A DNA stretch of 27,203 nucleotides from a virus. Under the pieces are notes generated by a model. It worked only from the letters and a program-made list of their open reading frames with translations, was not told where the DNA came from and did not search any database. The stretch covers positions 1 through 27,203 of IMG/VR virus record IMGVR_UViG_3300037010_000548; one strand, given 5' to 3'. The position numbers and the translations under genes were made by a program. Below are positions 9,116-21,040 of the stretch, in pieces; position 1 is the stretch's first letter, and every line of letters begins with the position of its first letter.

Positions 9116-9144
9116 ATTATACATATACTGTTGTCCACTCGCAA
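9116..9144 (-). promoter_or_regulatory. Probable leftward promoter for the replication block
   Basis: On the minus strand a TATAAT (9121-9116) lies 17 bp after TTGCGA (9144-9139), a 4-of-6 match to the -35 consensus. The -10 box is inside the palindrome GTATAATTATAC (9111-9122) and overlaps the stop codon of the preceding 347-residue gene. The short leader and first gene follow at 9079. Confidence 0.65.
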
Positions 9145-10160
9145 GGCATAAGCATAAGCTTGGTGTCTGTTGCTATGTACTCCCGCATACTGTATGGTAG
9201 CCCGTCTCCCTCTAGCGGTGTGTACACCACGATGTGCGCCTGCTTGTGGGTTATCTGTAGGTTGCGAAGTAAACCAAGTGCCGCTTGCTTTATTATGCCG
9301 CGATATAATGATGCGCTGTCGTGCTGCTTGGTATTCATTAGGGTACATATCACGTGGTCGATAAATGCGGACTGGGACGTGGAGGCATCTGTAAGTGAGT
9401 AGCTCTTGCTCCGCTCGTGCGCTTCTCTCTGTGCGCCGATACTGTATATAGCGGTTATTGCTGCGCACACCGTGTCTACGAACTCTGGTATTGGTATGCT
9501 GATGCCTTGTTCTATGTCTCGAAACATAACATCCGCTTGGTTGTACCCCCACATAGCGAACTGCGCTCTACGCCCACTGCTATGGCTAGGTGTCACTGCT
9601 ACTACCCCGCCGGTCTTAAAGTGATACTCGATTGTATCTCCAGCGAACCTACTGCCACACGATCTACTAGACTTACCCTTACCCATGTATGAGTATATGT
9701 GTACTCTGTGTCCGTCGTTCCGTGTTGGGTACCCTACGTTATTAGTTCTCTTATGCCCGCTACTGTTGTAGCGGGCATACTCCATGCGGAGGTATAGCTG
9801 GTCTCCCATACCGAGCGTTTTCATCAGGCGTGCTATGCGGACTCGGTTACCCTTATCGAATACATAGGGACTGAACACGATCTTGGTCGGGGTCACGGTT
9901 ATTGTGCAGTATTTGTCGAGTGCCTTGTGGGTAAACACGATACTATTACCTGTACTACCTATCGTGCTCCACCCATCAACATGGGGGATCATACCCTTGG
10001 TAGGCTTCGATAGAGTAAGGCTGCTGTGGTATATCGGGTCACCACCCGCTCGTGTTACGTACTGGGTGTACGTGCTTACCTGTGGCTTACCATTCAGTAC
10101 CGCCATGATGTTGTTGTGTATCTCTTTAGCGACTGCATACGCTATGAACCTAGGCTTCAT
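9117..10160 (-). CDS. Unrecognised 347-residue protein, end of the MoxR cassette
   Basis: A soluble protein of unknown function, with no membrane segment. The N-terminal third contains short beta-rich stretches (YCTITVTPTKIVFSPYVF). The middle is rich in Gly, Ser and Arg (GHKRTNNVGYPT, MGKGKSSRSCGSRFAG). The C-terminal third is helical. The start overlaps the stop of the 248-residue gene (ATGA). It is the last of six genes behind the MoxR ATPase and may belong to the same complex. It shares a general style with the 248-, 306- and 369-residue neighbours (basic, beta-rich N-half, helical C-half), but I see no convincing alignment by eye. Confidence 0.75.
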   Translation of the reverse strand: MKPRFIAYAVAKEIHNNIMAVLNGKPQVSTYTQYVTRAGGDPIYHSSLTLSKPTKGMIPHVDGWSTIGSTGNSIVFTHKALDKYCTITVTPTKIVFSPYVFDKGNRVRIARLMKTLGMGDQLYLRMEYARYNSSGHKRTNNVGYPTRNDGHRVHIYSYMGKGKSSRSCGSRFAGDTIEYHFKTGGVVAVTPSHSSGRRAQFAMWGYNQADVMFRDIEQGISIPIPEFVDTVCAAITAIYSIGAQREAHERSKSYSLTDASTSQSAFIDHVICTLMNTKQHDSASLYRGIIKQAALGLLRNLQITHKQAHIVVYTPLEGDGLPYSMREYIATDTKLMLMPCEWTTVYV

Positions 10161-10903
10161 GCTATCGCCTCCTTAATCACACATAACCGTTCAGTTGCGT
10201 ACGCAACGGGGCTGTTCATGTTCTCGAACAGCATCCCTACGTATGCTCTGGTAACAACCCTAACTGCCTCGTTAAGCTGGGCACCAGTGGCGTTGAGTAC
10301 CGAGTTGAGTACCTCTGGTTGGACAGACGTTATGTCGTCCCCAGATATGAGTACGCTACGCATGAAGTCCCGCAGCAGCCACGGTTGGACGACTCTTTCG
10401 TCCCTCTCGTGCATGTACGCCATAGACTTGCGCAGCGCATATACCTCGCCCAGCTTGTGCTTGTTGATGTACCTCACCGCCGCGTTGTCTGCCACCTGTT
10501 TGGTATGCGGCTCGAAGTTGATAGGGCGGTTATTCGCGGGGTCTCTGGCTACACGACCGTCATCCCGTATTGCACACCACCCCCTACTAGGTACGACCCA
10601 CCCTTCTATATTGGGTACTCCGCCCCTAGTCGACACTCTGGCTGGGGTACAATCCGCTAACGTACTCATCGTTGTCCTCGTCACCCACCCGCATAGGTTT
10701 ATCTCCCACCCAGTTGTGCGACTGTGCCTGGCGATCGTGTTTCCGTGCAGCGATAGCTCTACACACTCGTCCTCCTGGTCGCTGTTATATAGCGACCAGG
10801 TACGAGAGCCGTTGAAGTTCCGGGACTGTTTGGTGCGCCCCGCTTTAATGAAGTCCACAATCTTGAAGTGGGTGCCGCTGTATGCTCTTGAATCTGTTGC
10901 CAT
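10157..10903 (-). CDS. Protein with an LHGN-x-IA...GW motif
   Basis: A 248-residue protein. Around 50-80 it has ELSLHGNTIARH, then GWEINLCGWVTRTTMSTL. An L-H-G-N/T-x-I/V segment followed by a short strand and G-W-x-T-x-T-T is a pattern I recognise from many uncharacterised phage and metagenomic proteins. Its function is unknown to me. The later part is helical (LRKSMAYMHERDERVVQ). The start has a weak GGCGGA about 7 nt upstream and lies 12 nt after the previous gene. The stop overlaps the next start. It is encoded with the MoxR ATPase and metallopeptidase-VWA protein, so it is a candidate substrate or partner. Confidence 0.75.
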   Translation of the reverse strand: MATDSRAYSGTHFKIVDFIKAGRTKQSRNFNGSRTWSLYNSDQEDECVELSLHGNTIARHSRTTGWEINLCGWVTRTTMSTLADCTPARVSTRGGVPNIEGWVVPSRGWCAIRDDGRVARDPANNRPINFEPHTKQVADNAAVRYINKHKLGEVYALRKSMAYMHERDERVVQPWLLRDFMRSVLISGDDITSVQPEVLNSVLNATGAQLNEAVRVVTRAYVGMLFENMNSPVAYATERLCVIKEAIA

Positions 10904-10915
10904 TTTATGTTCCGC

Positions 10916-11836
10916 CTATTTGTTTAAGTTATGTATCACTCGTACAAAGTACGATAGCTGTGCTGTGGTGGGGACGAGTACCGCTGAGTCGTTAGACGCT
11001 ATACCTTTACGCAGTTCTGTGACAAGTACCTCCTGTAGTTCGTCTATAGTCATACCGCATTTCACATTGCCGCTCATGTGCCGCGCTACGTCATATCGGT
11101 TCCATGTACCACGCACCACTTTGCTGCACTTCGGCTCCATCAGTACGATGGTTTCTACTACTGGGGTGAGTAGCGCGAGTGCCTCCTTAACTATTTTGCT
11201 AGTCCCTTTGGTTGGACGCGTGGCTGGTAGTAGACCGCCGCTAGCTACACCAATCTGCAGCTCACCATCTACTATGTCACAGTTTACGGTCAGCCACTTG
11301 GTGCATGTGTTGTTTCCTATGCTCAGTTCACGGTATGACACCAACTTATCGAGTTTGTATTTGGCAGGCGCTCGGTTCAACCCACATAAGTCCCACAGGG
11401 TGTCTGATACCGCCCGTGACTGTGTGCTGCACCTGTACGTGTCTTCAACTGATATGGTATATGTTGTGCTGTATTTGGTTAATCGAACATTAACTCCGCA
11501 TATATTGGTGAGTAGTGTGTACCCTGGCTCTGTAATTTGTAGTACACACCGGTACCCTGATATACAGCCGATAAGGGCTGACCCTCCCACTGCACTGGTA
11601 AGTTTGGTGTATGCGCTTCTAGCTGTCTGCTCATGCTTTGTACGGATGATTTCCCGATACAACAATGCTTCCACCAGCAAGTCGGGGTTACCGAATATGT
11701 GCCCCCTAGCTACACTATCGCGCCACGTGCGGGAGGTCGCACCTTTACTCGTTACAGCCATGTATGGCGCGAGTTTAAGATTAGCCCTAACAGCCTTATT
11801 GGTTGTTAGCTTCTCGTCCCAGGCTGGTATGTTCAT
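10916..11836 (-). CDS. Unrecognised 306-residue protein
   Basis: A soluble basic protein of unknown function. The segment NPDLLVEALLYREIIRTKHEQ (about 50-70) is a clear helix. The middle is beta-rich with many threonines and cysteines (YTLLTNICGVNVRLTKYSTTYTIS). The last 80 residues are again helical. The start overlaps the stop of the 122-residue gene (ATGA). It is part of the MoxR/metallopeptidase-VWA gene set, and nothing in the sequence points to catalysis. Confidence 0.75.
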   Translation of the reverse strand: MNIPAWDEKLTTNKAVRANLKLAPYMAVTSKGATSRTWRDSVARGHIFGNPDLLVEALLYREIIRTKHEQTARSAYTKLTSAVGGSALIGCISGYRCVLQITEPGYTLLTNICGVNVRLTKYSTTYTISVEDTYRCSTQSRAVSDTLWDLCGLNRAPAKYKLDKLVSYRELSIGNNTCTKWLTVNCDIVDGELQIGVASGGLLPATRPTKGTSKIVKEALALLTPVVETIVLMEPKCSKVVRGTWNRYDVARHMSGNVKCGMTIDELQEVLVTELRKGIASNDSAVLVPTTAQLSYFVRVIHNLNK

Positions 11837-12201
11837 GCATCCTCCCCGTCGATTGTGAATGTTATCCGCGTACCTAGGTGATACGACGATTTATTTGAGA
11901 ATAAGTATTCTCTGTGATCCTCCTCGGACACCGAGATCAACTCCCACGATAGGAATGGGATGTCTATTAGCTCGTCACCTAACACCGTCATAAGCGCATC
12001 TACATGCGACCCATACCACTTCAGTCCACTATGTGCGAAGATGTCCACCTCAAAGTCCTTACTAACTTCTAACCCTGCCCCTATAATCAAGTCTACTATC
12101 CGTGCCTTGTTAATCACCATCCACGCTTTGTACGCGTTTGTAACTTCTTCATCTGCCTGTGCAGGATACACGTATAATGCAACGTCGCTATATGTTCCCA
12201 T
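11833..12201 (-). CDS. Conserved phage hypothetical protein (KWY motif)
   Basis: About 122 residues from the ATG at 12201, which has GGAG 7 nt upstream formed by the last codons of the metallopeptidase-VWA gene. A longer frame to 12237 would start inside that gene without a site. It begins with a strand (VALYVYP). It then has GLKWYGSHVDAL near 59-70 and WELISVSEEDHREY near 85-98. A K-W-Y followed by W-x-x-x-x-V-x-E-D resembles a recurrent phage protein family of unknown role. It is translationally coupled to its neighbours. Confidence 0.75.
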   Translation of the reverse strand: MGTYSDVALYVYPAQADEEVTNAYKAWMVINKARIVDLIIGAGLEVSKDFEVDIFAHSGLKWYGSHVDALMTVLGDELIDIPFLSWELISVSEEDHREYLFSNKSSYHLGTRITFTIDGEDA

Positions 12202-12202
12202 G

Positions 12203-13312
12203 CTACATCTCCAATACTTTGCCAGTGGTAATTGCATTTGCTGTCCCGCCCTCGATTAACAACCATACGGTGTTGACTGGGAAGTCTTTCGCACTGTCTT
12301 TATAAAAATACCCGTCCGTAAGGACGATGGTGAATGACTCGTCGCCCTGTATGTGCTCTATTAGGCATGACGGATCAGTACCACCACCGCCTTGGGGCTT
12401 GAGGATACTGGTCACTGAGCTATATGCCTCAGTAGGCACAGGCTGTACGTGCGCCTGTGTGTCCCACCAAATAACGTTCAGGCTCTCGGGTGGGCATGAG
12501 CTACACAGGTCGGCAACGGTCGCCGCTGCCTTACCGATAACATCTTGGCTGATACTGCCCGACGTGTCGATGCAGAAGTTCACATGTTTTGCAGCTACTG
12601 CCACAGACCCCGGCAGGTATATACCCATGGTTAGGTACACAGGGTTGACACGAGACCATGACTGGTCATCGCGCCCTGGTACTGTAGTATTCCACTCTGC
12701 CTGTAATAGCTCCCGCCAATTACGTTTGACTACTGACGCACTCTGAATGGCTCTCGCCTTGTTTGCTGGCGCACTTCCCGCACTCTGGCGGATAGCGATG
12801 TCCATCTCTGCTTGCTCCTCAGCGGGGGCGGGCTTGTCCATTATGTGCCCGTCCATACCGTTACCAAGCCCACGATATAGGCTAGGGTCAGCCATCAGGT
12901 GGCGGAACACGGTAGGCGTGTCCATACCAGCAAACTTTGGATCGTGCAGCCCGCCCTCAGGCATCGACACATCGAGGTCGCCTTTGTTCGCTAGGATTTC
13001 CCCGTTGATAACGTAATCCATCGCCATGTTGCACATCTGTGCATCGATGTTACGCAGCCCGACCCATGTACTCATGTGTCGATAGGCTTTGTGCATGTTC
13101 TCATGCAGTACCAAGAACCGAAGCTCTGCATCGTTCAATGTTTCTACGAAGTTCGGGTCATACATAACGTTTATGCCGTCAGTGGCGGCGGTTCCGATTG
13201 ATTCGACGGTCACGTTACCTGTCTTGATAATGCCACCCAAAAAACCCCAAGAGGTTGACCTCATGATGGCGATGTTAGCGCGAGTTATGCGCTGCTCAAC
13301 TGATATGTTCAT
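12203..13312 (-). CDS. Metallopeptidase-VWA protein (DUF2201/COG3864-like)
   Basis: A 369-residue protein with two recognisable parts. Residues 60-110 contain LRFLVLHENMHKAYRH, a zinc-peptidase HExxH motif (His70, Glu71, His74), followed by the helix MCNMAMDYVIN usual for the putative metallopeptidase domain of the DUF2201 family. Residues 243-365 are a von Willebrand factor A-like domain with a MIDAS: DTSGS at 249-253, the GGGGTD threonine at 312 and LTDG Asp333. Bacterial relatives sit beside MoxR-type AAA ATPases, as here, and are thought to act as ATPase-linked chaperone or protease complexes. AAGGA precedes the ATG. All metal-binding residues are intact, so activity is plausible. Confidence 0.88.
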   Translation of the reverse strand: MNISVEQRITRANIAIMRSTSWGFLGGIIKTGNVTVESIGTAATDGINVMYDPNFVETLNDAELRFLVLHENMHKAYRHMSTWVGLRNIDAQMCNMAMDYVINGEILANKGDLDVSMPEGGLHDPKFAGMDTPTVFRHLMADPSLYRGLGNGMDGHIMDKPAPAEEQAEMDIAIRQSAGSAPANKARAIQSASVVKRNWRELLQAEWNTTVPGRDDQSWSRVNPVYLTMGIYLPGSVAVAAKHVNFCIDTSGSISQDVIGKAAATVADLCSSCPPESLNVIWWDTQAHVQPVPTEAYSSVTSILKPQGGGGTDPSCLIEHIQGDESFTIVLTDGYFYKDSAKDFPVNTVWLLIEGGTANAITTGKVLEM

Positions 13313-13344
13313 GATTATTCCTTATGTTACTGTTTCTACTGGGC

Positions 13345-14454
13345 TCATGGTCTCCATACGCCCATTCTTCTACTTACATACCGTTTGGTATCCACCAGCT
13401 TAGGTACGAGCACCTCGTGGGTGACGCCTCTTACGGGCGGGTGGGTAGCCCACTCGATTATCTCATTAACCTCCTCCGTGATCTCCTCTGCCATGGTGTT
13501 GGAGATGTAAGGAGTTATCGGCGTTACGAGTGCAGCGATACGAGACCGCACATCCCCAGCATATTGCCTCCACTGACCCGGGGTAGGCTCATATCGCGCA
13601 ACACCCATGGTTACCATGGTGTCGAATATCTCCTGCAGTTGCGCCGACAATTTATCAGCCACCTCCTGCGTAGGTTTGTCCTTCTTATATTTCATCATAT
13701 CGTTCCGAGTGGCGTTACGCGCCCACTCTGGGTTTGGGACGTACCTTACAATCGTTCCAGACATCTGTGGCTCGTTGAAGTCCTCCCGAGATGGTATGTA
13801 GTAGAACGAGGGAAACCGAGGGAGTTCGCACCCAATCGGTACCCCTGTCTCTGCCCACATGAATGGGGTATGCAGTGAGCGTCGCTCGTTACCACCGTCA
13901 GCGGAGTATTTGGTTTTTCCTAGCGTGACCTCCATCAAGTTATACAATAGCTGGCTCATCGACCCGTCTACGTTTACCACTCGGTCAGACCGTACGGACA
14001 GTCTTATCACGTTCGACCCCGCCGTGTGTATTGATGTCAACGTAATACGGTTGAACCGTGCGGATACCCTTGCATCGTTATCTGCCAGTAGGCAGGTAAA
14101 GTCTACCCGACCTAACGACGCTTCTGCATTTATACCCCCACTGCACACAGCACCCCAATGAACCTGCGCGTGGGAAATAGGTATGCTCCCTTCTCGCAAC
14201 TTGATCGCCGTAGACACATGTTCACGGATTAGTATCGCCCACGCGAGCACGTGGGGGTGGTACATAAGCGGTGAAAAATGCCGTGTTTTAGTGCTCGCGC
14301 TAGATGCCAATAACCTTTTGAACACGTCCACCACGCCATCAGGCAGGTGTGCCCTTATTGCCTCTGGCATACGATCCATATAGTTGGATGCGCGGAGTGC
14401 GCTATCGAACTCCCACCCTGACACCGCGTCCGATATGCTTACTTCATTGCCCAT
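13345..14454 (-). CDS. Unrecognised 369-residue protein between MoxR and VWA genes
   Basis: I place the start at the ATG at 14454 because AGGAG lies 7 nt upstream. This overlaps the MoxR gene end by 16 nt. A longer frame to 14499 lacks such a site. The N-terminal half mixes helices with a beta-rich section (HTAGSNVIRLSVRSDRVVNVDG). The C-terminal half has a long helical segment (PTQEVADKLSAQLQEIFDTM, later EEITEEVNEIIEWA) and a basic end. I do not recognise the family. Its place between an ATPase and its usual VWA partner makes it a likely member of the same complex. Confidence 0.78.
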   Translation of the reverse strand: MGNEVSISDAVSGWEFDSALRASNYMDRMPEAIRAHLPDGVVDVFKRLLASSASTKTRHFSPLMYHPHVLAWAILIREHVSTAIKLREGSIPISHAQVHWGAVCSGGINAEASLGRVDFTCLLADNDARVSARFNRITLTSIHTAGSNVIRLSVRSDRVVNVDGSMSQLLYNLMEVTLGKTKYSADGGNERRSLHTPFMWAETGVPIGCELPRFPSFYYIPSREDFNEPQMSGTIVRYVPNPEWARNATRNDMMKYKKDKPTQEVADKLSAQLQEIFDTMVTMGVARYEPTPGQWRQYAGDVRSRIAALVTPITPYISNTMAEEITEEVNEIIEWATHPPVRGVTHEVLVPKLVDTKRYVSRRMGVWRP

Positions 14455-15491
14455 TGGTTGTCTCCTGCCCATTGTTGGAATTTTTTGTTCGTCGCGCACA
14501 TCACGTTGGCACGTAACATACCGATAAACGCAACCGCTGCTACCTCTAGGTGCATACGGTTACCGTAGGTGACCAGCGTTTCCACAATAGGTGCCAAATC
14601 TTTTGTCGGTACCCCGCGAACTTTATCGCTCATGCCGTAGGCTATCATTAGCTGTGCGGGAGTAGCAGTTGGCACCGTTGCCTTGTCTGGTGTAGCCATG
14701 ATGCTCTGCCATGAAGGTAGTTGGTCAGCTAGGTCGAGGTATGCGGACAGGTCAGCAGCAGCAGACGCCCCTAGGATACCCGCAACGGCTTTTGTTGTGC
14801 TGGAACGCCCAAGGGTACTACGCTTACTGATAACAACGCTGGCTTTAGATAAGGAGCGAGGGGACACGAATTTATCCGTGCGTGTCTTCGGGTCGAAAAC
14901 ATAGGGGTTTTGTGGAGACCCTGCTGGCTCCATTGTGTGTGGGAATTGGTTCACAAATGCGCGGACTACAGGGTCAATGCCGTTGTTCTCTGCCCATAGC
15001 AACCACTGTTCGGCAGTCGGCTTGGCGAGTGGCAGTGTACCGACTCGGTTGTTCATGTGTGCAGGGAATACATCCCCAACGCCGTCTTGTGTACGGTTGC
15101 CCGTCGCAAATACGATTGATCCCTCGGGCAACGTGTATGCGCCGATCACGTGATCTAACAGCAGGCGGGTGAATAACAAGCGAGTTACGTTACTAGACTT
15201 GGGTAATTCGTCCAACATGATGAGCTTTGGACGTGTATTGTCCCCGCCCCACATAGCGTTCGTGGCAAACCGAGACGTGCCCGCTTCCACGAATGGAAGC
15301 TGGATGTCAGGGATGTCCATCGTAGGGCAATCAACGTAGATGGGTTGGTAGGATGGGAGGGTAGAAGCTAGGCGTTTGAGCAGATCAGATTTGCCGATTC
15401 CCGGCTCGCCTGTGATGATGTATGTTACGTCAGTGCCTGTTGCGGCGATGGTGTTTACGACTTCGTCGTGTGTCATGTCAGTAGTGTACAT
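14439..15491 (-). CDS. MoxR-type AAA+ ATPase
   Basis: A 350-residue AAA+ ATPase starting at the ATG at 15491, which has GGAG 7 nt upstream. Motifs: Walker A GEPGIGKS (28-35), Walker B IMLDEL (91-96), sensor 1 ATGNR (129-133) and MNNRV near 146-150 in the position of the arginine finger. The G-E-P-G-I-G-K-S and A-T-G-N patterns place it with MoxR/AAA_5 ATPases. These form hexamers and usually act with a VWA protein to remodel or load metal or cofactors into targets, and the VWA partner is encoded two genes downstream. The gene follows a long structured leader. The target of the complex in this phage is unknown. Confidence 0.9.
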   Translation of the reverse strand: MYTTDMTHDEVVNTIAATGTDVTYIITGEPGIGKSDLLKRLASTLPSYQPIYVDCPTMDIPDIQLPFVEAGTSRFATNAMWGGDNTRPKLIMLDELPKSSNVTRLLFTRLLLDHVIGAYTLPEGSIVFATGNRTQDGVGDVFPAHMNNRVGTLPLAKPTAEQWLLWAENNGIDPVVRAFVNQFPHTMEPAGSPQNPYVFDPKTRTDKFVSPRSLSKASVVISKRSTLGRSSTTKAVAGILGASAAADLSAYLDLADQLPSWQSIMATPDKATVPTATPAQLMIAYGMSDKVRGVPTKDLAPIVETLVTYGNRMHLEVAAVAFIGMLRANVMCATNKKFQQWAGDNQWAMK

Positions 15492-15624: not shown

Positions 15625-15849
15625 TTAGAAAGAAGTTGGTTTAGCTACGCTACGAACCATTGCCATAATACCAGTTTGGCAGTCCGTTCGTCCGATACTT
15701 ACCCAACGTTTATCCGTTGAGTCTACCGACAACAAACGCTGCGTTAGTGCATCGAGTGTTTGCCCGACTTGTTTAATATCGTTCATCAAGTCAATTTCTT
15801 CTTGACTTAGTTCGCGGTATCCTGTGATTAAACGATGTTGATTTTCCAT
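15625..15849 (-). CDS. acb2: Acb2-family anti-CBASS protein
   Basis: A 74-residue protein with the pattern I know from the Acb2 (Acb2/Tad1-type) family of phage cyclic-nucleotide sponges. It has HRLITGYRELSQEEIDLMN (5-23), a helical hairpin, DKRWVSIGRTDCQTGIM (46-62) and a VRSVAKPTSF end. Tyr11 and Lys26 occur at the positions I recall as cyclic-dinucleotide contacts in Acb2 of Pseudomonas phage PaMx33. Known members bind cyclic di- or trinucleotides made by CBASS and so stop effector activation. It is one base after the tad2-like gene in transcription order and about 130 nt before the MoxR gene. The ligand range here is not known. Confidence 0.88.
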   Translation of the reverse strand: MENQHRLITGYRELSQEEIDLMNDIKQVGQTLDALTQRLLSVDSTDKRWVSIGRTDCQTGIMAMVRSVAKPTSF

Positions 15850-16350
15850 TTAGTTCTCCTCTACCACGTACCAATCAGAACTTAGAAGGTCTGTCTGGCT
15901 CGCCAACCAAGGTACGTTTGCATTAATGTGCGAGATGGGCGCACTGTCACTTGCAGGGGTAGTCGGATACTGCATATACAGGTACGGCAACGTCATATCT
16001 GAGCCTTCCGTCGGTTGATGCACAGCGACTTTCAGACCTTTACCGTTCCAGCCGCGACGTGCGATACTGCGCCCTTGCTTCGCTAGCTCTAACGCTAGCC
16101 CGAAAGGTAAATTACCATGCAGGTCACGGTACGCGTCGGCGAACACTTGTTCTGGTGACCATGAGACGTACCCATCGTGACCTTTAACATTTGATTCCTC
16201 ACCTACACGAGGTTCATACTCGACTAGGTATCCTGCGTCATCGCCGCGTTCGTTTGCGGGTAGTGCCCACCCACGGTACTCATTATATGCTGCACGGGTC
16301 ATCGCGGTAGCCTTGATGCTCTTTAACCCAATGTGCGTTGTCTTGAACAT
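15850..16350 (-). CDS. Tad2-domain (DUF2829) protein, putative anti-Thoeris
   Basis: About 166 residues from the ATG at 16350, with AAGGAG 7 nt upstream. A longer frame runs into the tRNA and is rejected. Two parts are visible. Residues 3-78 (THIGLKSIKATAMTRAAYNE ... GHDGYVSWSPEQVF) match a domain often seen in phage proteins. Residues 83-165 match DUF2829/Tad2: FGLALELAKQGRSIARRGWN, GKGLKV and the signature VPWLASQTDLLSSDWYVVE. Tad2 proteins bind signalling molecules derived from NAD and so block the Thoeris defence. Fusion with the N-terminal domain is known but its role is unclear. It follows the tRNA and precedes the Acb2 gene, forming an anti-defence pair. Confidence 0.87.
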   Translation of the reverse strand: MFKTTHIGLKSIKATAMTRAAYNEYRGWALPANERGDDAGYLVEYEPRVGEESNVKGHDGYVSWSPEQVFADAYRDLHGNLPFGLALELAKQGRSIARRGWNGKGLKVAVHQPTEGSDMTLPYLYMQYPTTPASDSAPISHINANVPWLASQTDLLSSDWYVVEEN

Positions 16351-16505: not shown

Positions 16506-16534
16506 ATTATATCAAATACTTGACCAAAAGTCAA
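16506..16534 (-). promoter_or_regulatory. Sigma-70-like promoter for tRNA and anti-defence genes
   Basis: On the minus strand TTGACT (16534-16529) and TATAAT (16511-16506) are 17 bp apart. The -35 box lies inside the inverted repeat ACTTGAC-N5-GTCAAGT, a possible operator. The tRNA starts about 50 nt downstream. Confidence 0.82.
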
Positions 16535-16543
16535 GTTATCTAT

Positions 16544-19266: not shown

Positions 19267-19616
19267 AGGTACGCTCCTATATTGCATTGAATTAAGCTGG
19301 CGGTGTGTTCTGTGTATGGGAACAGTTCTTCTGGGTTGGGGACGGCACTTGATAGATGCACCTGTGGTGTGTCGCCACGGAAGGCATAGACGATGGTGCG
19401 CCCTAACGCCATGAGGGGTAATAGTGCATCAAGTTTGAGCTTTAGGTCAACCCATGGTTTGATGTGTGTTTTTGATTTTGGCACTGGTCGATACTCACCG
19501 TTTTTGTGGTGAGGGGAATATACAGGCAAGGGAGCTTTTGGAAGCTCCTTTAAGATGAGGGGTTCGTAGTGGCGGCGATATGGTGCTGCCTTGCCTATGC
19601 GGGTGGCTACTATCAT
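19263..19616 (-). CDS. Hypothetical protein, first gene of block A
   Basis: A 117-residue basic protein (RIGKAAPYRRHYEPLILKEL, PVPKSKTHIKPWVDLKLKLD) of unknown function. It is the first gene behind the promoter at 19703-19731. Its ATG is preceded by GGAG, and 13 nt upstream ends a hairpin next to AACATTAAC, a leader arrangement also present before two rightward genes at 20723 and 21054. That shared leader suggests common regulation of these three genes. Confidence 0.72.
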   Translation of the reverse strand: MIVATRIGKAAPYRRHYEPLILKELPKAPLPVYSPHHKNGEYRPVPKSKTHIKPWVDLKLKLDALLPLMALGRTIVYAFRGDTPQVHLSSAVPNPEELFPYTEHTASLIQCNIGAYL

Positions 19617-19629
19617 GGGGTACTCCAGT

Positions 19630-19649
19630 GGTCATTGACCGTTAATGTT
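19630..19649 (-). promoter_or_regulatory. Leader element: AACATTAAC plus AAT-loop hairpin
   Basis: On the minus strand AACATTAAC (19649-19641) is followed directly by GGTCAATGACC (19640-19630), a 4-bp stem with an AAT loop. Exactly 13 nt then separate it from the ATG at 19616. Two rightward leaders have the same layout with a different stem sequence. Confidence 0.7.
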
Positions 19650-19676
19650 ACAGAAAGTAGGGTCATTACTTTGTTT

Positions 19677-19731
19677 CAGGTAATTTTTCACTTTCTAGGT
19701 ATATTATACCATAGGGAGGGTAAATTGTCAA
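19677..19731 (-). promoter_or_regulatory. Perfect-consensus leftward promoter with shared downstream element
   Basis: TTGACA (19731-19726) and TATAAT (19708-19703) on the minus strand are 17 bp apart. The 32-nt stretch 19677-19708, covering the -10 box and first transcribed bases, differs at one position from 16480-16511 at the other block promoter. AGAAAGT (19652-19658) and ACTTTCT (19690-19696) can pair in the leader. Confidence 0.87.
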
Positions 19732-20194
19732 GTAGTTGGCAATTTCCAGGCAAAACCCACGTAAGTCGTTGATTTTTTCATCTGGAAATGAATCTGGAAA
19801 TTGGGAAACCTTTGAAATCAACGAGTTGCGACGAATTTCCGCGTTTCCAGCCAAAAAAACATAATACAATATATTGAGCGCTAAATCTTTGTATAATTAT
19901 ACAGGTGTCTCTATATATATCTAGTTTATTTTATCGGAAACCTGGAAATTGATGTAAGTAACTAGATAAATATGGAGTTTTTTTTCCAGGTGGTTTCCAG
20001 ATTTGCAAGTATTTTACGCAAGTCCTTTACAGTCAAAGACTTGCATATGTCAAGTCCTTTAAATTTCCAGATTTGGAAATGTCAAGTCCTTTAAACTTCC
20101 AGGCAAGATGAGAATCGTTCGCAGATTCACCCCAAATTTCCAAATCTGGAAATTGCAAGTCCTTTCCAAAGCAATAAGCGTGCCAACTTTTTTA

Positions 20195-20226
20195 CTATTT
20201 TTCACGCGAAAATAGGTGAAAAATAG
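20195..20226. repeat. Perfect 11-bp inverted repeat
   Basis: CTATTTTTCAC (20195-20205) and GTGAAAAATAG (20216-20226) are exact reverse complements around a 10-nt spacer. Neither side is followed by a T-run on the transcript, so it is not an intrinsic terminator. It is more likely a protein-binding site or a single-strand initiation hairpin. Confidence 0.75.
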
Positions 20227-20239
20227 CTATTCTGCCCTC

Positions 20240-20285
20240 TTGACAGCAGGGGCTCAGAAAGTTATAATGACGCTAGTCATTATAA
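20240..20285 (+). promoter_or_regulatory. Rightward consensus promoter with palindromic operator
   Basis: TTGACA (20240-20245) and TATAAT (20263-20268) are 17 bp apart. The -10 box is the left arm of a perfect inverted repeat, TTATAATGAC-N4-GTCATTATAA (20262-20285), well placed for a repressor. The next gene starts more than 400 nt downstream, so the transcript may be a noncoding RNA or an origin primer. Confidence 0.78.
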
Positions 20286-20635
20286 AAACGAAAAATTTGA
20301 AATCTGGAAACGCGGAAATGTAAAGAACTTGCCTCCTCCCGCGTCAGTCTGCGTGCGTAGTATGTAATGCGTACCCTCCGCCTTGAAAACCTCGGGGGCT
20401 ACGCACCAGAAACTACGCAGATGTGTCAATTTTGACCGTTGCAGGATTTTTGGAATTGTCAATTTTGACACGGCGTGGTGTGCCAAGGGGAGGTGGCTGC
20501 AGCTCTCACATCAGTCGCTCCCGCATCAGTTTGTAGTACCCTATATGCACACGCGCGTACGTGGGCGAGTCAAAATTTTGACATGTGCAGGATTTTTGAG
20601 ATTGTCAAAAATAAATAAAATAGTTTAGAAAATAC
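20286..20635. other. Noncoding stretch with paired operator-like repeats
   Basis: Short open frames here have no ribosome-binding sites or family signals. Two composite repeats are seen. GTCAATTTTGAC (20425-20436) is followed after 4 nt by GCAGGATTTTTG. GTCAAAATTTTGAC (20569-20582) is followed after 4 nt by the same 12-mer. Each is then followed by ATTGTCAA after about 5 nt. A further GTCAATTTTGAC is at 20458-20469. These look like binding sites for a regulator upstream of the early promoter at 20636. Confidence 0.6.
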
Positions 20636-20709
20636 TTGACACGATATGCCTGCGCCCTTATAATAGGAAGCGTCAACAAGACAAACAGCAACATTAACGC
20701 CCAATGGGC
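20636..20709 (+). promoter_or_regulatory. Early promoter and leader, first copy
   Basis: TTGACA (20636-20641) and TATAAT (20659-20664) are 17 bp apart. The leader has GTCAACAAGACAAA (20672-20685), AACATTAAC (20690-20698) and the hairpin GCCCAATGGGC (20699-20709), then 13 nt with AAGGA to the ATG at 20723. Nearly the same unit precedes the next gene. Confidence 0.87.
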
Positions 20710-20722
20710 AGAAGGACTATAT

Positions 20723-20953
20723 ATGAACGATCTATTAGTAGCAGACAAAAGCATGATGGTGCAGGTGAAACGTGCGATTCGCATTATCGTGCGTGATTGT
20801 TTGGATTACTACCCTTTGAATGGGGAGTGGGCAACCGTTGGCGTAGGCGTATGGATTAACACGCCGCGCCGCAATAATGAATTTGTTTTAATGCTCGCAG
20901 ATAAAGAAGTCGGCACTGTCAATCTCGCATTATTGCACAATCGTAAAAAATAA
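20723..20953 (+). CDS. Small early protein of unknown function
   Basis: A 76-residue protein from the ATG at 20723, preceded by AAGGA 8 nt upstream. A longer frame to 20636 would translate the promoter and is rejected. It has a helical start (MMVQVKRAIRIIVRDCLDYY) and a beta-rich second half (TVGVGVWIN, EFVLMLADKEVGTVNLALL). It has its own consensus promoter and faces rightward beside the probable origin, so it is probably an early gene, perhaps host-directed. No family is recognised. Confidence 0.72.
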   Translation: MNDLLVADKSMMVQVKRAIRIIVRDCLDYYPLNGEWATVGVGVWINTPRRNNEFVLMLADKEVGTVNLALLHNRKK

Positions 20954-20965
20954 TTTGTAAAATAC

Positions 20966-21040
20966 TTGACACGGGGGAACTCGTGTCATATAATAGAACC
21001 GTCAACAAGACAAAACGTTTAACATTAACGCCCAATGGGC
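20966..21040 (+). promoter_or_regulatory. Early promoter and leader, second copy, with operator
   Basis: TTGACA (20966-20971) and TATAAT (20989-20994) are 17 bp apart. GACACG and CGTGTC form an inverted repeat around 8 nt from the -35 box into the spacer, a possible operator absent from the first copy. The leader repeats GTCAACAAGACAAA (21001), AACATTAAC (21021-21029) and GCCCAATGGGC (21030-21040), then 13 nt to the ATG at 21054. Confidence 0.87.

Follow-up and report, generated by a model that had tools for sequence, protein, structure and literature searches.

The viral DNA examined here, a fragment of 27,203 bases from the IMG/VR virus record IMGVR_UViG_3300037010_000548 (hereafter the window), carries on its minus strand a cassette of seven genes coding for a MoxR-clade AAA+ ATPase, a protein with an HExxH metallopeptidase domain fused to a VWA domain, and five further proteins termed P369, P122, P306, P248 and P347 (Table 1; the VWA protein also has 369 residues and is distinct from P369). 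The ATPase and the VWA protein form a known pair, which is accompanied here by real dedicated partners and belongs to a newly outlined module, of which the window holds a divergent member.

The cassette and its ATPase-VWA pair

The initial annotation described a coupled seven-gene run of over 6 kb, and all seven open reading frames (ORFs) indeed follow one another on the minus strand from 15491 to 9117 with short gaps or overlaps: the ATPase and P369 genes overlap by 16 bp, gaps of 32 and 1 bp separate P369 from the VWA gene and the latter from P122, P122 and P306 overlap by 4 bp, P306 and P248 are 12 bp apart, and P248 and P347 again overlap by 4 bp. The partner lengths it gave (369, 122, 306, 248 and 347 aa) are likewise correct and correspond to starts supported by ribosome-binding sites. 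GGAG-type sites precede the ATGs at 15491 (ATPase), 14454 and 12201, the last two being the internal starts from which the 369- and 122-aa lengths follow, and do not precede the longer mechanical ORFs (384, 134 and 368 aa). An antisense ORF of 610 aa on the plus strand (10026-11858) overlaps the P306, P248 and P347 genes; it is ruled out as a true gene by its codon score and by Pfam matches on the other strand. The minus-strand frames of the five partners score +0.02 to +0.10 bits per codon versus -0.19 for this ORF, and lie below the DNA polymerase gene (0.26 bits per codon), as expected if they are fast-changing or recently acquired. The five proteins give no signal of paralogy among themselves.

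The ATPase matches phrog_1297 (E=1.8e-49), and its profile recovers Midasin as the best match among solved structures, with CbbQ/NorQ also found. Its similarity to the MoxR clade is accompanied by intact motifs, namely Walker A (GEPGIGKS), Walker B (LIMLDE), the sensor 1 residue N150 and the arginines R167 and R230. The VWA protein contains the DUF2201_N (PF13203, E=2.1e-14) and DUF2201 (PF09967, E=2.7e-8) domains, both above the Pfam cut-off, and matches phrog_1314 (E=2e-57); the N-terminal part of its profile matches MJ1213. Both its HExxH motif (HENMHKAYRH) and its MIDAS motif (DTSGS...T...D) are present, so that this protein is as intact as had been claimed, and it has the architecture of the phage metallopeptidase-VWA co-factors. 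The two genes lie on the same strand with one gene between them, as befits a phage MoxR/VWA pair. All 182 relatives that were aligned, phage and plasmid proteins alike, keep the HExxH and DxSxS signatures, which indicates that proteolysis is under selection and that the protease is no relic; the zinc-protease domain is probably active. Relatives of the VWA protein were recovered by tblastn in 448 phage records. The phrog_1314 family is labelled 'HNH endonuclease' or 'homing endonuclease' by RefSeq and PHROG, and this label, which has spread over many phage records, is unsupported because the protein carries the DUF2201_N and DUF2201 domains.

Table 1. Coordinates of the cassette genes and of features upstream of them in the window
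Feature	Position	Strand	Remarks
MoxR-clade AAA+ ATPase, 350 aa	14439..15491	-	longer ORF from 15545; phrog_1297, intact motifs
P369, orphan between ATPase and VWA genes	13345..14454	-	matches nothing
Metallopeptidase-VWA protein, 369 aa, HExxH and MIDAS	12203..13312	-	PF13203, PF09967
P122, f133 'MGYRSEVA' family	11833..12201	-	f133 profile
P306, orphan	10916..11836	-	matches nothing
P248, candidate X family member, Gp96-like N-terminal domain	10157..10903	-	phrog_554, PF23790, X profile
P347, orphan, last gene of the cassette	9117..10160	-	matches nothing
Acb2/Tad1-hairpin protein	15625..15849	-	PF24729 E=3e-15
Tad2-like protein	15850..16350	-	PF11195 E=2.3e-17; ORF from TTG 16410
Sigma-70-like promoter, TTGACT-17-TATAAT with TG (extended -10)	16506..16534	-	11/12 consensus positions

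A module with rapidly diverging partners

What is new is the module surrounding the ATPase-VWA pair, not the pair itself. The suggestion of an undescribed phage machine was overstated: a phage MoxR/metallopeptidase-VWA pair has already been published in jumbo phages, where virion assembly was proposed (PMC7824862), and gp24/gp25 of phage N4 constitute an ATPase-VWA pair (PMC2784036). We assembled about 240 loci by profile scans with the VWA protein, the polymerase and the ATPase (a nine-sequence VWA profile and a 42-sequence DUF3150 profile proved too diverse for scanning). About 130 related IMG/VR contigs combine the pair with a DUF3150 protein, a small protein of the f133 'MGYRSEVA' family and two families of about 300 aa, X and Y. 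The module is commonly located just upstream of the DNA polymerase gene, usually in the order module, polymerase (POL), PD-(D/E)XK nuclease (PDDEXK), VRR-type nuclease and SNF2 helicase, and in the polymerase lineage the genes run ATPase, DUF3150 (about 285 aa), VWA, a 226-aa gene, a gene of about 300 aa and the polymerase. DUF3150 occurs in all 54 loci with both the pair and the polymerase (48 called directly, 4 as collapsed duplicates or missed at first, and 2 just upstream on the same contig, past the locus edge). In the clade nearest to the window f133, DUF3150, ATPase, VWA, X and Y appear in varying orders, with DUF3150 between the ATPase and VWA genes, before the ATPase gene or after the VWA gene. 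Among the 79 nearest loci DUF3150 was detected in at least 70, X in at least 56, Y in at least 33 and f133 in at least 31, these being lower bounds as contig ends often cut the loci. In a tree of the ATPase and VWA proteins, built by a quick search with no bootstrap, the window falls in a clade of 15 rows with an SH-aLRT value of 100; DUF3150 is present in 13 of the other 14 rows, and in the last one, L017, the contig stops a short way upstream of the ATPase gene. We found no mention of DUF3150 in the literature searched.

Within the module the engine, with its ancient ATPase and metalloprotease, is conserved, and the phage-specific partners change fast. Over 150 locus pairs with ATPase identities of 60-92% (median 70%), pairwise global alignment gave median identities of 61% for VWA and 60% for DUF3150, and of 37% for f133, 31% for X and 27% for Y, the baseline for shuffled X sequences being 26%. 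A multiple-alignment version agrees; in it POL, SNF2 and PDDEXK match the engine in conservation (60-76% versus 24-29% for X and Y). Because the partners diverge fast, those of the window mostly resemble nothing.

Two of them could nevertheless be placed. P122 scores 14.4 bits against the f133 profile, with none of 400 shuffles as high, the top five among 12,485 related-locus proteins in its comparison are all f133 members, and the invariant residues G2, S5, V7 and KWY are shared; by sequence it belongs to this family. P248 matches phrog_554 (E=4e-5) and, under the Pfam cut-off, PF23790 (E=6e-4), and scores 8.0 bits against the X profile (0/400 shuffles). Its Gp96-like domain was seen independently in the 248-aa gene of the sister phages L097-L099, that of L097 giving equally weak matches to phrog_554 and PF23790, and the assignment to X also draws on the shared phrog_554 matches. 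We regard membership of P248 in the X family as moderately supported, because X was merged iteratively with a result that hinged on whether the 248-aa genes of L097 and L098 were included. Through P122 and P248 the window would thus hold both the f133 and the X component of the phage module. No window protein matches the Y profile; even between closely related phages, Y sequences are about as alike as shuffled ones.

The remaining three are orphans. P369 has no match in Pfam, PHROGs, NCBIfam, phage tblastn, viral contigs or local profiles, nor have P306 and P347 in Pfam, PHROGs, NCBIfam, viral-contig scans or local profiles, and for all three nothing rose above shuffles in phmmer runs against the 12,485 related-locus proteins or in HMM and hhalign comparisons with the families of neighbouring genes, DUF3150, X and Y among them. 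An early weak lead from P369 to c50 (0/300 shuffles) was gone with larger profiles. The earlier claim of dedicated partners, for which a neighborhood check across phages had been proposed, therefore holds for P122 and P248, whose relatives lie beside the pair, and not for P369, P306 and P347, for which none was found there.

DUF3150 gave no profile match in any ORF of the window, the score of P369 falling within shuffles, and it is lacking beside the pair although the tree places the window inside a DUF3150-bearing clade. By this profile evidence it is absent from these 27 kb, and would therefore have been lost, moved or replaced. The slot of P369 between the ATPase and VWA genes is one of the positions of DUF3150 in relatives. 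However, P369 is not simply a diverged DUF3150, since plasmid DUF3150s accompanying ATPases only 26-29% identical to that of the window are found at E<1e-75.

Plasmid triads and known MoxR-VWA systems

DUF3150 was also found in 42 plasmid records, and in 41 of these a comparison of coordinates shows the VWA gene adjoining it. Three plasmid records examined in detail have the order ATPase, DUF3150, VWA, and in two of them the genes follow one another directly, with type IV secretion genes close by; PRTRC genes are annotated beside one of the three triads. Likewise, the triad has the order ATPase-DUF3150-VWA in 46 of 65 bacterial genome contigs retrieved with a DUF3150 profile, and X, Y and f133 occur in none of these 65. 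The contigs L182 and L183, together with the plasmid records, show the MoxR-DUF3150-VWA triad near PRTRC and type IV secretion genes in Burkholderiales. DUF3150-like genes also occur in Planctomycetota and Deltaproteobacteria contigs (L312-L327), with no MoxR or VWA gene detected nearby. The Burkholderiales plasmid triads (e.g. those of pBVIE02 and pl2WSM5005) share the ATPase and VWA families with the window, as well as the order ATPase, third gene, VWA. However, their third gene is DUF3150 and that of the window the unrelated-looking P369, and the plasmids lack X, Y and f133.

Homologous pairs of ATPase (phrog_1297) and HExxH-VWA protein (phrog_1314) are present in N4 (gp24/gp25), the group 2.2 jumbo phages (PMC7824862), PA5oct and S-TIM5. 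These pairs have no DUF3150 in the loci examined and no f133, X or Y partners, and the window and its clade form a branch separate from them. The vWA-MoxR ternary conflict systems with VMAP and iSTAND components (PMC7159879) similarly combine MoxR and VWA proteins with variable third components. Unlike these, the cassette is phage-borne and has no effector fused to the VWA protein, whose VWA domain extends to the penultimate residue (368 of 369); no VMAP-C or inactive STAND partner was matched by Pfam or NCBIfam among the cassette partners, where divergent members could be missed. The p618/p892 proteins of Acidianus two-tailed virus (ATV) are also a viral MoxR-VWA pair, but belong to an archaeal virus, have no reported peptidase domain and are tied to tail growth. 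NorQ/NorD, RavA/ViaA and CbbQ/CbbO each join a MoxR ring to a VWA co-factor and, by analogy, are likely to share the working principle of the cassette pair. Their targets are known enzymes, and their VWA proteins are not known to carry the HExxH domain described here.

Likely role and genomic setting

The most likely reading, which we hold tentatively, is that these genes specify a protease that remodels proteins at the expense of ATP and does so within the host cell in the early phase of infection, with partners serving in recognition. An early intracellular role is favored because the cassette lies on the minus-strand early/replication side, downstream of sigma-70-like promoters; the terminase and portal genes are on the opposite strand. 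By analogy with NorQ/NorD, for which a ring with a VWA plug provides the precedent (PMC9976466), the MoxR ATPase would form a hexameric ring binding the VWA protein. DUF3150 would complete this engine in relatives, and P369, P306 or P347 may stand in for it in this phage. The f133 protein P122, the X-like P248, Y and the orphans would be recognition or substrate-facing subunits, diverging fast because the molecules they contact change; such divergence fits the recognition of changing host proteins. Several points weigh against this proposal. Fast divergence can also result from weak constraint, the window is a 27-kb fragment outside which DUF3150 could lie, and P369, P306 and P347 have no relatives and are tied to the pair by the operon alone. 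The promoter matches come from consensus scans. A single-sequence model of P384, the longer P369 ORF, reached a pLDDT of 40 and was unused, and the good structure model of DUF3150 (pLDDT 88.9) was uninformative in a fold search, yielding generic helical-bundle matches and no Foldseek hit below 0.001, an absence that proves nothing.

In dozens of contigs the module lies just before the genes for POL, PDDEXK, the VRR-type nuclease and SNF2, which, together with the PRTRC genes near the plasmid triad, might instead point to remodelling of replication or nucleoprotein complexes, in which the machine would load, unload or cleave proteins at the phage fork or at recombination intermediates through partners adapting it to phage replication proteins. 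We consider this unlikely: POL, SNF2 and PDDEXK are well conserved, so that subunits binding them should not diverge so fast, and the plasmids lack this polymerase context. A putative role in counter-defence or host takeover, both raised by the initial annotation, is plausible. A machine dedicated to counter-defence, extracting or cleaving host immune proteins through hypervariable partners that recognize changing defence proteins, would account for the fast divergence of the phage-specific partners and for the triad on plasmids, which face the same defences. Moreover, anti-defence genes do lie directly upstream of the cassette as had been claimed, a Tad2-like gene (PF11195) and an Acb2/Tad1-hairpin gene (PF24729), probably on the same transcript. 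Yet this adjacency is weak evidence, because these neighbors are not conserved by the cassette in relatives (one Tad2-like match in the 79 nearest loci), and the vWA-MoxR conflict sets are bacterial defence systems with other third components (PMC7159879); we judge so specialized a role quite unlikely. Equally doubtful is that the operon is a coincidence, with the pair working alone and P369, P306 and P347 being unrelated early-gene cargo. None of these three has relatives beside any other pair, but the coupled run also contains P122 and P248, which belong to module families, and in relatives such partners regularly diverge fast.

A chaperone-protease for virion assembly has been proposed in jumbo phages (PMC7824862), and p618 of ATV binds a VWA protein and virion proteins (PMC4124505). 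For the cassette we find this role very unlikely, and the capsid remodelling considered at first is likewise disfavored: its genes lie in the early/replication operon, opposite the structural one, and the triad occurs on Burkholderiales conjugative plasmids, which have no virions. A function common to phages and plasmids cannot be virion assembly. As far as this variant of the pair is concerned, no argument against the published proposal is stronger than the plasmid triad, which says nothing on jumbo phages. Going beyond the intracellular remodelling protease favored above, it is possible, if on balance unlikely, that phages and conjugative plasmids share a MoxR-DUF3150-VWA metalloprotease for establishing themselves in a new cell, to which phages added hypervariable recognition subunits in an arms race with host proteins, the window being an extreme case with its DUF3150 part replaced. 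If the favored remodelling-protease reading is correct, genes that are very common in environmental phages, and that mostly carry the annotation 'hypothetical' or, wrongly, 'HNH endonuclease', would encode an ATP-driven protease with swappable recognition parts, the core of this phage machine would be common to conjugative plasmids, DUF3150 could be tested as one subunit of a defined machine, and the rule of a conserved engine with fast-changing partners would help to find targets.

The left part of the window encodes on the minus strand an SNF2 helicase, a VRR-type nuclease, a PD-(D/E)XK nuclease, a family A DNA polymerase, a ribonucleotide reductase small chain, a dATP/dGTP diphosphohydrolase-type protein and ThyX, and the right part encodes on the plus strand an SU10-type portal and a terminase that shares 41% identity with its counterpart in Pseudomonas phage Rollin. 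Downstream of the cassette a small protein, P170 (8099-8611), has a 28% counterpart in the sister phages L097-L099 (L097 5315-5686). The promoter listed in Table 1 precedes a tRNA-Met gene, the two anti-defence genes and the cassette, a run of genes not interrupted by any strong terminator, and a promoter matching 12 of 12 positions (19731-19703) heads the leftward operon; only the quality of such matches counts, because overall counts of promoter-like sites equal those of shuffles. ATG 16350 is the likelier start of the Tad2-like gene, as the mechanical TTG start overlaps the tRNA-Met gene. An inverted repeat (ACTTGAC...GTCAAGT, 16518-16536) over the -35 element of the cassette promoter is a possible operator. 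The divergent region at 19500-21000 is low in GC (41%) and contains four sigma-70 promoters with perfect matches, of which that at 19731 points leftward and those at 20240, 20636 and 20966 rightward, as well as a repeated stem, TGCCCATTGGGCG, near 20710 and 21041; it is likely to be the early control region.

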